Part shown: in pieces, positions 23,545-26,134 of the stretch
Layout of the letters: the number at the start of each line of letters is the position of its first letter
How positions within the stretch are numbered: the first letter of the stretch is position 1
Assembly (NCBI RefSeq): GCF_000153465.1
Contig: NZ_CH672387.1
Location: 1,642,046 to 1,706,045, forward strand
Reading direction: 5' to 3'
Source of the DNA: Aurantimonas manganoxydans SI85-9A1
GTDB lineage: Bacteria > Pseudomonadota > Alphaproteobacteria > Rhizobiales > Rhizobiaceae
Length of the DNA stretch: 64,000 nucleotides
Position numbers and translations under genes: made by a program
Notes under the pieces: generated by a model
The model's database searches: none
Told to the model about the DNA's origin: nothing
What the model saw: only the letters and a program-made list of their open reading frames with translations

Positions 23545-24966
23545 CTACTCCGCGGCTTCCGCGATCGGGGCCTGGCCGAGCCAGCCGGCGAAATCGGCGA
23601 GGGCGCGGGCCGAAAGCGCCTTCTTCTTGGCAATCGCCTTGTCCTTGCCGCGAAAGCGCGTGACGCCCTCCGGCTTCTGGATGGCCCCCGGCTCCAGCGG
23701 CGGGAACAGGCCGAAATTGATGTTCATCGGCTGGAAGGACCGCTTGCCGCTCTCTTCCTGATGGGCGAGGTGGCCGCCGGTGATATGCGCGGCGAGCGCG
23801 CCCATGGCGGTCGTCTGCGGCGGCGGGGTGGCGGCTTCGCCCAGACGCTCGGCGGCGGCGAAACGGCCGGTCATCAGCCCGACGGCGGCCGATTCCACAT
23901 AACCCTCGCAGCCGGTGATCTGGCCGGCGAAACGGATATGCGGGCGCACCTTCAGCCGCAATGTCGGGTCGAGCAGGGTCGGCGAGTTCAGATAGGTGTT
24001 GCGGTGCAGGCCGCCGAGCCGTGCGAATTCGGCGTTCTCGAGCCCGGGGATCATCCGCAGCACGGCCGCCTGGGCGCCGTATTTCAGCTTCGTCTGGAAG
24101 CCGACGATGTTGTAGAGCGTGCCCAGCGCATTGTCCTGGCGCAGCTGCACCACGGCATAGGCCTTGATGTCCGGCTGATGGGCGTTGGTCAGGCCCATCG
24201 GCTTCATCGGGCCGTGGCGCAGGGTCTCGGGACCGCGCTCGGCCATGATCTCGATCGGCAGGCAGCCGTCGAAATAGGGCGTGCCTTCCCATTCCTTGAA
24301 CTCGGCGCGGTCACCCTCGACGAGGGCGGCGACGAAACGCTCGTAGGTGTCCTTGTCGAGCGGGCAGTTGATGTAGTCCTTGCCGGTGCCGCCGGGGCCG
24401 ACCTTGTCGTAGCGCGACTGGAACCAGGCCTTGTCCATGTCGATGGAATCGAAATGCACGATCGGCGCGATGGCGTCGAAGAAGGCGAGGGCGTCAGTGC
24501 CGGTGGCGGCGCTGATCGACTCGGCCAGCGACGGCGCCGTCAGCGGGCCGGTGGCGACGATGCTGGGGCCCCATTCCTCGGGCGGCAGGCCCTCGACCTC
24601 GCCGCGCTCGACGGTGATCAGCGGATGTGCCGCGATCGCTTCGGAGACGGCGCCGGAAAAGCCCTCGCGATCGACCGCGAGCGCGCTGCCGGCGGGCACT
24701 TGGTGGGCGTCGGCGCAGCGCATGATCAGCGAATTGGCGAGCCGCATCTCGGCATGGAGGACGCCGACCGCATTGGTCTGGCTGTCGTCCGACCGGAAGG
24801 AGTTGGAGCAGACGAGCTCGGCCAGATGGTCGGTCTTGTGGGCCTCGGTACCGCGGACGGGCCGCATCTCGTGCAGGACCACGGGCAGACCGCGTTCGGC
24901 GATCTGCCAGGCAGCTTCGGATCCGGCGAGCCCGCCGCCGACGACGTGAATGGGTTGTTTCGACAT
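23545..24966 (-). CDS. trmFO: Methylenetetrahydrofolate-tRNA-(uracil-5-)-methyltransferase TrmFO
   Basis: TrmFO is a folate- and FAD-dependent enzyme that makes the T54 (m5U) of the tRNA T-loop. The 473 residues start [20 protein letters not shown], the Rossmann FAD site. GlyCys-containing family motifs follow, such as [20 protein letters not shown] and the late [20 protein letters not shown]. Length is typical. The gene begins about 90 bases from the last hairpin of the DUF1127/sRNA array and is transcribed in the same direction. The array's last hairpin may therefore insulate it. Confidence 0.95.
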
Positions 24967-25056
24967 GGGGACAATTTAGCAGTCGCGCGTGGCGATCAAA
25001 AGGCCGCGTGGCGATCCGCGCGCATGATCGAGCAAGTTTGCGGCCTCCAAACGACA

Positions 25057-25157
25057 ACACCCGCCGGGGGGAGGACCCGACGGGTGTCGCATTGGGACCT
25101 GCGCTGGGAGGAGGATGCGCAGGTCATATCCGCTTCAGGCCCGGGAGGAGGTGGGCC
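25057..25157 (-). ncRNA. CcsR/cuckoo-like small RNA unit 3 (last transcribed)
   Basis: Three hairpins read on the minus strand. 25157-25138 has a 5-bp stem GGCCC/GGGCC. 25124-25097 has an 8-bp stem ACCTGCGC/GCGCAGGT with loop ATCCTCCTCCCA. 25087-25057 has an ACACCCG stem, one mismatch, then a CGGG/CCCG stem with loop TCCTCCC. The last hairpin is followed by TGTCGTTTG, which could act as an intrinsic terminator for the whole array. The loops expose an anti-Shine-Dalgarno-like CUCCUCCC. Assignment rests on structure and position behind a DUF1127 gene. Confidence 0.75.
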
Positions 25158-25185
25158 CTACGCGAAACTCTAGAAGGTCTCTGAT

Positions 25186-25289
25186 CGCCCGTCGGGGGGA
25201 GGACCCGACGGGCGACTGAGAGGTACCTGCGCTGGGAGGAGGATGCGCAGGCACTTTATCCGCCTTGGGCTTGGGAGGAGGAGTAGCCC
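25186..25289 (-). ncRNA. CcsR/cuckoo-like small RNA unit 2
   Basis: Three hairpins on the minus strand. 25289-25267 has stem GGGCT/AGCCC. 25251-25226 has stem CCTGCGC/GCGCAGG. 25214-25186 has a perfect 11-bp stem CGCCCGTCGGG with loop TCCTCCC. The two longer loops contain CTCCTCCCA-type sequence. The spacing to units 1 and 3 is ~128-129 bp, measured loop to loop. An extension of the third stem would include C-to-T differences from unit 1 that are compensated on the other arm, which supports an RNA structure. Confidence 0.75.
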
Positions 25290-25314
25290 GCAGCGAAGCT
25301 CTGTAATCTCTGGG

Positions 25315-25417
25315 CGCCCGCCGGGGGGAGGACCCGGCGGGCGTCTGGGTGGAAACTGCCTGGGAGGAGGAGTGGCAGTTTCCGATCCGCTTGGGTCCTG
25401 GGAGGAGGAGTGGACCC
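25315..25417 (-). ncRNA. CcsR/cuckoo-like small RNA unit 1 (next to DUF1127 gene)
   Basis: Three hairpins on the minus strand begin 22 bases after the DUF1127 stop. 25417-25393 has stem GGGTCC/GGACCC with loop ACTCCTCCTCCCA. 25383-25351 has a perfect 10-bp stem GGAAACTGCC/GGCAGTTTCC with the same 13-base loop. 25343-25315 has an 11-bp stem CGCCCGCCGGG with loop TCCTCCC. The middle stem has a different sequence from those in units 2 and 3, yet it pairs perfectly around the same loop. Co-transcription with DUF1127 followed by RNase processing is expected from the known Rhodobacter CcaF1-CcsR locus. Confidence 0.78.
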
Positions 25418-25430
25418 TTGCGAAAGTCTT

Positions 25431-25445
25431 GGCTGATGATCAGCC
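25431..25445 (-). promoter_or_regulatory. Small hairpin overlapping the DUF1127 stop codon
   Basis: GGCTGA-TGA-TCAGCC (6-bp arms, 3-base loop) spans the stop codon of the DUF1127 gene, just before the sRNA units. It could mark an RNase processing boundary; that is inference. Confidence 0.4.
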
Positions 25446-25583
25446 GATGGCGCGGCGGGCGACCGAGTTGATGTCGCCGCGCGAGATGCCGAGATCGGCC
25501 AGTTCGCGCAGGGAGAGACGGTTCAGTTCGTTGACCGTCTCGCGGTAGCGGCGCCAGTTGTTGTAGGAGCGAACGAGGTTCAT
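25440..25583 (-). CDS. DUF1127 small basic protein (CcaF1-type)
   Basis: This 47-residue Arg-rich protein starts MNLVRSYNNWRRYRETVNEL and contains the DUF1127 core LSLRELADLGISRGDI. Small DUF1127 proteins in Rhodobacter (CcaF1) and Agrobacterium bind RNA or affect RNA turnover and phosphate/carbon metabolism. The ATG at 25583 follows AGGA with a 7-base spacer. The gene leads an array of three hairpin units on the same strand, the arrangement seen for ccaF1-ccsR. In Rhodobacter that locus is induced by heat and oxidative stress through RpoHI/RpoHII. No convincing RpoH site is visible here. Confidence 0.88.
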   Translation of the reverse strand: MNLVRSYNNWRRYRETVNELNRLSLRELADLGISRGDINSVARRAIG

Positions 25584-25973
25584 CGGTTTATCCTGCGGTC
25601 TTAAATCGATTGAAGCGGCTGATTGTTTCGTCTGCGTCGCTTCGGTGACTGGAAGGTAGGCGGTGCAGGGCGGACCCGCTAGAGCCTTCGATGCATGGCA
25701 GCCTTGCGATTTGTGCAACGCAACAATCGGCGCATGTGCGGGGGCTGCCGCCGCGATCGGCAGGGCATTCGACACCACCCTCTTGCTGACAGGACCAATC
25801 CAAGTCGCACGCCGTTCTTTGAAGGGATGCGCGCTGGATCACGCCAAAAGGGCCGGTCCCGTGTGAAAAAGCCATGGAATCATGCGGATTGGCCCCCATA
25901 TGGGCCTTTCGTGGCCGCGAGGCCGGTGATATAGAAGCGCGCGTCTCGCGTCGCCCACCGTACGGCGCATTAT
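25584..25973. other. 390-bp gap between divergent DUF1127 and tRNA-Leu
   Basis: I see no gene here. It holds the DUF1127 leader, a TTGTTGC-type palindrome (25711-25726), and a near-palindrome GGCCCCCATATGGGCC at 25891-25906 or within a base or two of it. It must also hold the promoter region of tRNA-Leu, for which I cannot pick a clear -35/-10 pair. Confidence 0.6.
25711..25726 (-). promoter_or_regulatory. Imperfect palindrome upstream of DUF1127 gene
   Basis: On the minus strand TTGTTGCGTTGCACAA, ~130 bases before the DUF1127 ATG. The internal TTGCAC with a 16-base spacer to ATGCAT could also be a promoter. It may be a transcription-factor site; the factor is unknown. Confidence 0.35.
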
Positions 25974-26058
25974 GCGGGTGTGGCGGAATTGGCAGACGCA
26001 CTTGGTTTAGGTCCAAGCGCCGAGAGGCATGGGGGTTCAAGTCCCTCCACCCGCACCA
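25974..26058 (+). tRNA. tRNA-Leu (anticodon UAG)
   Basis: 85 nt including encoded CCA. The acceptor stem is GCGGGTG/CACCCGC. The anticodon stem CTTGG/CCAAG holds loop TTTAGGT, giving anticodon TAG. It has a class II long variable arm and the T-loop GGTTCAAGTCC. It lies directly before tig. Confidence 0.97.
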
Positions 26059-26134
26059 GCGGCCGCTTTCACGGAATTCATTGCGGGTCGGCCTGAATGA
26101 TCGGTCGTCTCGAGCACACAAGAAGGTATCCAGA

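Follow-up and report, generated by a model that had tools for sequence, protein, structure and literature searches.

A DUF1127 gene with three tandem ar14-type anti-Shine-Dalgarno RNA units in Aurantimonas manganoxydans, preceded by a candidate LsrB/VtlR promoter block

What kind of small-RNA locus follows the short DUF1127 gene of Aurantimonas manganoxydans SI85-9A1, how might it be transcribed, and how does it relate to the anti-Shine-Dalgarno (anti-SD) RNA systems already described in other bacteria? An earlier note on this DNA had described a 47-residue DUF1127 gene on the minus strand, followed by nine hairpins in three units of ~129 bp with an anti-SD motif in every loop, and had proposed a possible new variant of the ccaF1-CcsR or "cuckoo" type of stress RNA locus. 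We analysed the locus within a 64-kb stretch of the genome (the window; 64,000 nucleotides, to which all positions refer) and compared it with related genomes. Papers are cited by PMC number, for those parts of their text that were available. The features of the locus are as follows.

25693–25717, minus strand: conserved promoter block TGCACAAATCGCAAGGCTGCCATGC, candidate LsrB/VtlR site (alignment, published motifs)
25654–25659, minus strand: candidate −10 element CTACCT, 58 nt from the block start, with a predicted transcript start near 25647 (spacing in relatives)
25440–25583, minus strand: DUF1127 gene, 47 aa with the start Met, stop included (Pfam PF06568; aligned with relatives)
25309–25428, minus strand: ar14-type sRNA unit 1, three hairpins, without a U-tract after hairpin 3 (RF02344, 87.1 bits)
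25302–25308, minus strand: linker joining units 1 and 2, a possible site of processing (sequence; linkers of relatives)
25180–25301, minus strand: ar14-type sRNA unit 2, three hairpins, without a U-tract after hairpin 3 (RF02344, 74.0 bits)
25171–25179, minus strand: linker joining units 2 and 3, a possible site of processing (sequence; linkers of relatives)
25052–25170, minus strand: ar14-type sRNA unit 3, whose hairpin 3 (loop 25075–25069) with its U-rich tail is the likely transcript terminator (RF02344, 74.5 bits; tail test on relatives)

Read along the minus strand, the promoter block (25717–25693) is followed by the DUF1127 gene, the three RNA units and then trmFO (GidA family, Pfam), which starts at 24966 and shares its strand with DUF1127 and the array, while a tRNA-Leu (25974–26058) and the trigger-factor gene lie upstream of the locus on the opposite strand. 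The 47-residue gene of the earlier note was recovered as an open reading frame at 25583–25440 that matches Pfam PF06568 with 57.2 bits (cut-off 23.3), its stop codon lying 11 nt from unit 1. Among the best 80 of 325 DUF1127 relatives, the closest named one comes from Aurantimonas coralicida DSM 14790 (98%), with one residue changed; the tails of the three RNA units of that strain are identical to those in the window. A bin also named Aurantimonas coralicida (L074) carries a DUF1127 that is 83% identical to the query, and perhaps represents another species. Two other DUF1127 genes of the A. manganoxydans genome (L177 and L178) are without an anti-SD hairpin array directly behind them, and show a single weak, isolated hairpin ~1 kb and 1.6 kb downstream.

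The array itself consists of three ~129-bp units, with unit-to-unit steps of 127 and 131 bp. In its minimum-free-energy fold, 25052–25428 forms nine hairpin loops, as had been described, plus some long-range pairs, and none of 100 dinucleotide shuffles was equally stable (z = −9.35). The loops read ACUCCUCCUCCCA, ACUCCUCCUCCCA and UCCUCCC in unit 1, ACUCCUCCUCCCA, AUCCUCCUCCCA and UCCUCCC in unit 2, and ACCUCCUCCC, AUCCUCCUCCCA and UCCUCCC in unit 3. An anti-SD motif was indeed found in every loop, with UCCUCCC unpaired in 9/9; the nine-base CCUCCUCCC occurs in 6/9, namely in hairpins 1 and 2 of every unit (6/6) and in none of the third hairpins (0/3). These loops resemble the anti-SD sequence of the ribosome; a search of the A. 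manganoxydans genome with a 16S 3′ end pattern gave no match, perhaps since rRNA is missing from it. A hairpin finder detected 11 hairpins with TCCTCC loops on the 64-kb minus strand, eight of them inside the 0.35-kb array, and one on the plus strand; the ninth array hairpin (unit 2 hairpin 1, with a 5-bp core stem) fell below the 6-bp stem limit of the finder. This clustering of anti-SD loop hairpins is not due to chance.

The stems are also conserved as pairs. We aligned 34 units, 32 of them distinct, taken from 11 genomes; 96.4% of cells were paired and 18 of 27 pairs had changed on both sides. The covariation score of 0.370, compared with 0.199 for shuffled data, was reached by none of 500 shuffles, and sliding the partners by 1–3 columns gave at most 0.113. 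A pair-type count gave a weaker covariation signal, reached by nine of 500 shuffles.

Searches with Rfam covariance models place the units in a known family. All three pass the ar14 model (RF02344), with 87.1, 74.0 and 74.5 bits for units 1, 2 and 3 at a gathering threshold of 58.8. The CcsR model, a check that the earlier note had recommended, did find the units, but all three remained below gathering: the CcsR1 scores (RF02791) were 37.9, 31.3 and 28.1 bits against a threshold of 65.3, and these matches (E = 1.8e-07, 1.6e-05 and 1.4e-04) cover hairpins 1 and 2 only. Over the class, CcsR1 matched at E ≤ 0.001 in 10 of 190 genomes, including that of A. manganoxydans, and exceeded its cut-off in none, so the model is narrow. 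In the 4.3-Mb A. manganoxydans genome, with 150 of 289 first-look candidates scored, the three array units were the only RF02344 matches at E ≤ 0.001. No AbcR-type sRNA (ar15, RF02345) was matched in this genome, and the controls gave no match either, so that the result does not speak for its absence.

Judged by these scores, the units belong to the ar14 family, the three-hairpin anti-SD sRNAs of the Sinorhizobium meliloti NfeR1 type. Published descriptions equate ar14 with the NfeR1 family, with three hairpins and CCUCCUCCC loops (PMC10746234, PMC7143759), and three- and four-hairpin members have been on record since 2011 (PMC3927594 section 2.7). Among the latter, SmelA075 and SmelA099 of S. 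meliloti resemble the units by description, having three and four hairpins with CCUCCUCCC loops, and stress induces SmelA075, which occurs in several processed forms (PMC3927594 section 2.7). The three hairpins per unit, which the earlier note had seen as a departure from two, are therefore no novelty, ar14 itself being a three-hairpin family, and the suggestion of a new variant went too far, since every unit passes RF02344. We also considered a new hairpin class and dropped it, as ar14 fits all three units. The cuckoo paper reportedly describes a family with two to four hairpins, each with CCUCCUCCC.

At the level of gene order, a short DUF1127 gene lies directly upstream of tandem anti-SD sRNAs on the same strand, and on this layout the locus is a further example of the known DUF1127 and anti-SD sRNA locus type ("CIN1"). 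The likeness to ccaF1-CcsR and cuckoo operons that had been proposed for it is upheld by gene order and loops, as is the presence of several RNAs per operon by the three RF02344 units. The locus shares with ccaF1-CcsR1-4 of Rhodobacter sphaeroides a DUF1127 gene and tandem anti-SD sRNAs, which there have a common terminator (PMC10253847), and with CIN1/cuckoo (Reinkensmeier and Giegerich 2015, cited in PMC10253847) a short DUF1127 gene with CcsR-like sRNAs. It differs from CcsR in the number of hairpins, two per unit there (RS0680a, PMC3927594 section 2.7) and three here, and from ccaF1-CcsR in its promoter, which is of the RpoHI/RpoHII type there whereas an LsrB/VtlR-like block is found here; in addition, CcaF1 has 71 aa, compared with 47 aa for the DUF1127 protein. 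With NfeR1/ar14 the units have in common three hairpins per ~120-nt unit and anti-SD loops, but NfeR1 is described as transcribed alone from a promoter of its own, and here three tandem units stand behind DUF1127.

The association between DUF1127 and ar14 units was then evaluated in relatives. Among 60 relatives searched, ar14 was matched at E ≤ 0.001 in 44 and over the cut-off in 36, with three or four matches in each of seven congeners. From these matches we picked 40 regions, taking arrays and several solitary copies first. DUF1127 adjoins the array in all seven congeners fetched, and a DUF1127-like ORF was present in 28 of the 40 regions; ar14 copies are not all linked to DUF1127, since 12 of the 40 showed none (in at least one case, L044, the region is truncated by the end of its contig).

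From the protein side, we took the best 80 of 325 DUF1127 relatives as named loci, which are related, so that their counts are not independent. The 1.5 kb downstream contained at least two anti-SD hairpins on the coding strand in 80/80, compared with 2/80 on the opposite strand and 1/80 upstream. A covariance model built from the 34 units found at least one unit in 80/80 loci, and 147 units there besides the three of the window, with one extra match on the other strand. Rfam was run on seven of the 80, yielding 17 ar14 matches with at least one in each, and the other 73 were assessed with our own model and the hairpin finder. One unit was found in 47 loci, two in nine, three in 18, four in three, five in two and six in one, where L087 and L088, from one metagenome bin, look like one array seen twice and were both counted, and where the first unit of L091, spanning 217 nt, may be two units. 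Several RNAs per operon are common in this group of 80 named loci. The first unit follows DUF1127 at a median distance of 19 nt (4 to 242), measured with a fixed gene length of 141 nt.

Some arrangements depart from this layout. One locus (L072, 1410–3073, genome G042) has four consecutive DUF1127 genes, all but the first of them followed by sub-cut-off ar14 matches. It looks as though multiplication had affected the entire DUF1127-plus-RNA cassette, rather than the RNA unit alone. In four others (L060–L063), ar14-type loop motifs occur before or between DUF1127 genes, and the order of gene and RNA is therefore not fixed outside the Aurantimonas group. The arrays of L043, L044 and L085 lie at or near contig ends, which is expected where near-identical tandem units break assemblies.

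Is such an array one transcript or several? In the window, a U-rich tail follows unit 3 only and is weak (GUUGUCGUUUGG); units 1 and 2 have none. The third hairpin had been called terminator-like, which in units 1 and 2 holds for its stem only. In this the array differs from ar14 elsewhere, where a U-rich tail is typical of solitary members and of the model consensus, though Rfam membership does not depend on it. A consensus scanner for intrinsic terminators found none in 24950–26100. For the 80 named loci, a tail was scored as U-rich when it had at least 7 T in 16. No internal unit (0/67) had such a tail, compared with 23/33 last units and 43/47 single units, and a run of at least 3 T followed 9/67, 31/33 and 47/47, respectively. 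The T count of the last unit exceeded that of each internal unit in 32/32 multi-unit arrays, L085 having been excluded because its contig ends inside the array, and the mean T count was higher in the last unit in 10/10 genus-level groups. Because only the last unit keeps a U-rich tail, a tandem array would correspond to one precursor with one terminator, and the linkers of 7 and 9 nt in the window are too short for promoters between units. The array thus looks like a single precursor that would need cleavage. Most simply, the inner terminators would have disappeared since they would end the transcript early. By analogy with CcsR (PMC10253847), the individual RNAs may be released by RNase E.

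To what promoter might such a precursor be attached? When the upstream regions of 12 genomes were aligned, one strongly conserved block stood out. The best match to the published Brucella VtlR motif (PMC12595884) in the window lies here, at 25692–25706, with 2 mismatches in 15; within the window alone, three matches at ≤ 3 mismatches compare with 1.66 expected and were equalled in 25 of 100 shuffles, so the case for a VtlR-like site rests on conservation. In the upstream regions of the 80 loci (best 80 of 325 relatives), the motif was found at ≤ 3 mismatches in 65/80, against 0/80 reversed regions (best 5 mismatches) and 0/78 downstream regions (best 4; two contigs were too short). Matches fall mostly between −101 and −139, with off-register ones at about −290 to −312 in five Aminobacter loci (L127, L143, L145, L147 and L150). 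The left half of the block in the window, TGCA-N6-GCAA, is one base off the LsrB motif of the S. meliloti NfeR1 promoter, TGCA-N6-GCAT (PMC10746234). This LsrB motif is exact in 25/80 loci and present with GCAW in 52/80, where the exact and GCAW controls gave 0 and 1 reversed, and 0 and 0 downstream. The combined block was found at ≤ 2 mismatches in 70/80 loci, the best in both controls having 4, for a pattern that was written after the alignment was seen and a Brucella motif that derives partly from orthologous DUF1127 genes. In 10/80 loci, nine of Phyllobacterium and L110, the left half is largely unrecognisable. The A. manganoxydans genome has one perfect place for the combined block, at the DUF1127 locus, and one with 3 mismatches. 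The latter copy (L154) was set aside as possibly due to chance; the ORF nearby resembles, by eye, that of an ABC transporter ATPase, and Rfam at gathering listed nothing there. A contig labelled Xylophilus (L113) shares an identical 60-nt promoter stretch with Brucella pseudogrignonensis (L114), and is probably mis-binned.

No sigma-70 consensus promoter was found in 24950–26100. Spacing in relatives suggests a candidate −10 element: CTANNT lies 58 nt from the block start in 31/31 loci having CTANNT 50–75 nt downstream, and 39 of the 70 block-bearing loci have no CTANNT in that interval. Should this −10 candidate be correct, the start of the block would fall near −70, which is close to −72 as given for NfeR1 (PMC10746234), and the block would resemble the LsrB site of NfeR1 in spacing as it does in sequence.

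As to the regulator, the A. manganoxydans genome encodes a 298-aa LysR protein directly downstream of trxB, a candidate LsrB/VtlR by gene order only; the trxB-vtlR order is said to be well conserved (PMC7486931). The VtlR/LsrB circuits have diverged between species (PMC7486931), which makes the transfer of this control to Aurantimonas uncertain. LsrB is oxidative-stress-responsive (PMC10746234), and oxidative stress may therefore be a relevant condition, apart from RpoH. Similar gene arrangements are known from VtlR targets: BAB1_0914, BAB2_0512 and BAB2_0574 of Brucella and atu1667 of Agrobacterium are short DUF1127-type genes with a VtlR site upstream, but are treated as small-protein genes in the available sections of PMC12595884 and PMC7486931. 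PMC7486931 does not decide between a protein and an RNA as the product of atu1667, and one Brucella DUF1127 gene is described as being without the VtlR motif (PMC12595884). In L108, of the genus Brucella, a VtlR motif match, DUF1127 and an ar14-type unit occur together.

Heat induction as in Rhodobacter, which the earlier note had anticipated, found no support: the block is LsrB/VtlR-like, and the 350 nt in front of DUF1127 gave no match to a simple RpoH-like pattern (CTTG-N15-19), a weak one that also missed the CcsR-type loci L174 and L175. The block suggests that LsrB/VtlR is in control here, and not RpoH as in the ccaF1-CcsR operon of Rhodobacter. Within it, GTTG-N17-CCATGC can be read by eye as a poor version of what we take to be an RpoH-type promoter; we rejected this candidate, as the stretch is part of the LsrB/VtlR-like block and the simple pattern gave nothing. 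L174 and L175, which are CcsR-type or related and come from other families, have a weaker similar block at −117 and −109, with 4 and 2 mismatches; two loci provide only a lead.

The anti-SD loops raise the question of which mRNAs they might bind. The A. manganoxydans genome contains 18 sites of the form GGGAGGAG-N4-8-ATG and three of the reversed pattern. Two of the 18 open only short ORFs of 11 and 51 codons, and the other 16 ORFs were scanned and all match Pfam. Seven of the 18 sites belong to uptake systems, comprising three DctP, one DctQ and one DctM (TRAP) as well as two periplasmic binding proteins; TRAP/ABC candidates lie, for instance, at 383591, 994696, 2029731 and 3165528 of G000:C1. 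With 25 DctP Pfam matches in the genome, the chance of at least three DctP in 16 is ~1e-4, assuming 4100 genes, a post hoc figure for a small list. A different strong SD gave 11 sites (reversed control, two), four of which open ORFs of ≤ 47 codons; one of the ORFs, judged by eye, is like a sugar ABC permease. Another ORF behind the control SD (L204, 1514–2971; G000:C1 near 559810) looks by eye like a RuBisCO large subunit. Uptake systems are therefore candidates for a prominent place among the predicted targets, and the predicted targets of NfeR1 are mostly transport genes as well (PMC7143759, PMC10746234).

Taken together, we consider it probable that the locus is an ar14-type DUF1127-sRNA operon, activated by LsrB/VtlR, whose single precursor is cut into anti-SD RNAs that block the translation of uptake mRNAs. 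The LysR-type LsrB/VtlR regulator encoded beside trxB would most likely activate one promoter upstream of DUF1127, from which RNA polymerase would copy DUF1127 and the three units and stop at the last hairpin. Cleavage in the single-stranded linkers, probably by RNase E, would divide the precursor into a small mRNA and three RNAs of ~120 nt. The DUF1127 protein probably aids this cutting, a part that CcaF1 plays in Rhodobacter; contacts with other proteins are a further way in which DUF1127 proteins work (PhoR; PMC12501420), so an RNA-processing role need not hold here. The three anti-SD loops of each RNA may then pair with GGGAGGAG-type ribosome-binding sites and block the translation of mRNAs that are predicted to serve largely solute uptake (TRAP, ABC), and three units, giving nine loops per transcript, would act as a dose multiplier.

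This proposal has to be weighed against three others. The locus might be a strict Rhodobacter CcsR-type locus, an RpoHI/RpoHII-driven ccaF1-CcsR operon whose units merely gained a third hairpin. Its gene order is identical, the first two hairpins do match CcsR1 below threshold, and a genome of the same class (G081) has DUF1127 with four two-hairpin units in the same layout, also below the CcsR1 cut-off. The GTTG-N17-CCATGC stretch, too, could by eye be a poor RpoH-type promoter, presumably, and the ccaF1 operon has an RpoHI/RpoHII promoter (PMC10253847). However, all three units pass RF02344 and none RF02791, the conserved upstream block is LsrB/VtlR-like, and CTTG-N15-19 is absent from the 350 nt upstream, a weak point given that L174 and L175 were missed likewise; we therefore think a strict CcsR-type locus unlikely.

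We see even less room for the view that every unit is an independent sRNA of the NfeR1 kind, equipped with a promoter and a terminator of its own, and that the units stand behind DUF1127 by chance. NfeR1 is transcribed alone (PMC7143759, PMC10746234), and ar14 copies without a nearby DUF1127 do exist in the 12 of 40 fetched regions, among them the contig-end-cut L044. Against this, linkers of 7 and 9 nt leave no room for a promoter, no internal unit among 67 passes the U-tail threshold, and the first unit follows closely behind DUF1127 (median 19 nt) in the 80 loci, all of which were found through DUF1127 and therefore carry no information on copies located elsewhere. A role mainly in cis, in which the hairpins, as a structured 3′ UTR, make the DUF1127 mRNA more stable or adjust read-through into trmFO and have little activity in trans, would fit the position of the array between the two genes on one strand, and also its weak last tail, which did not score as a terminator. 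Stability in cis, however, needs no conserved SD-mimic loops alongside covarying stems, and the ar14 member NfeR1 acts in trans through its loops (PMC10746234), making a mainly cis role, to our mind, similarly improbable.

What the analysis suggests beyond the known locus type is the LsrB/VtlR-like promoter block and the rule of one tail per array, both over 80 loci. Our literature search did not find ar14/NfeR1 and DUF1127 treated together in the text available to it; the 2015 cuckoo paper, the likeliest place, lay outside its scope. Extending the LsrB/VtlR-activated ar14-type operon to the Aurantimonas-Phyllobacterium-Brucella-Aminobacter group, we lean, with reserve, towards the view that each LsrB/VtlR-driven DUF1127 transcript is a dual-function RNA, an mRNA with one to six ar14 sRNAs made from its 3′ part, and that unit multiplication, with loss of the inner terminators, serves as an evolutionary volume control. 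The 80 loci provide a testable statement in this respect, that DUF1127 genes of the VtlR-target sort carry ar14 sRNAs on the same transcript. If true, the RNAs may account for effects of vtlR or lsrB mutants that have been sought in small proteins, and deletions of the DUF1127 frame alone would miss the RNA effects. The dual-function reading would then join LsrB-NfeR1 in S. meliloti, VtlR-DUF1127 in Brucella and Agrobacterium, and CcaF1-CcsR in Rhodobacter.
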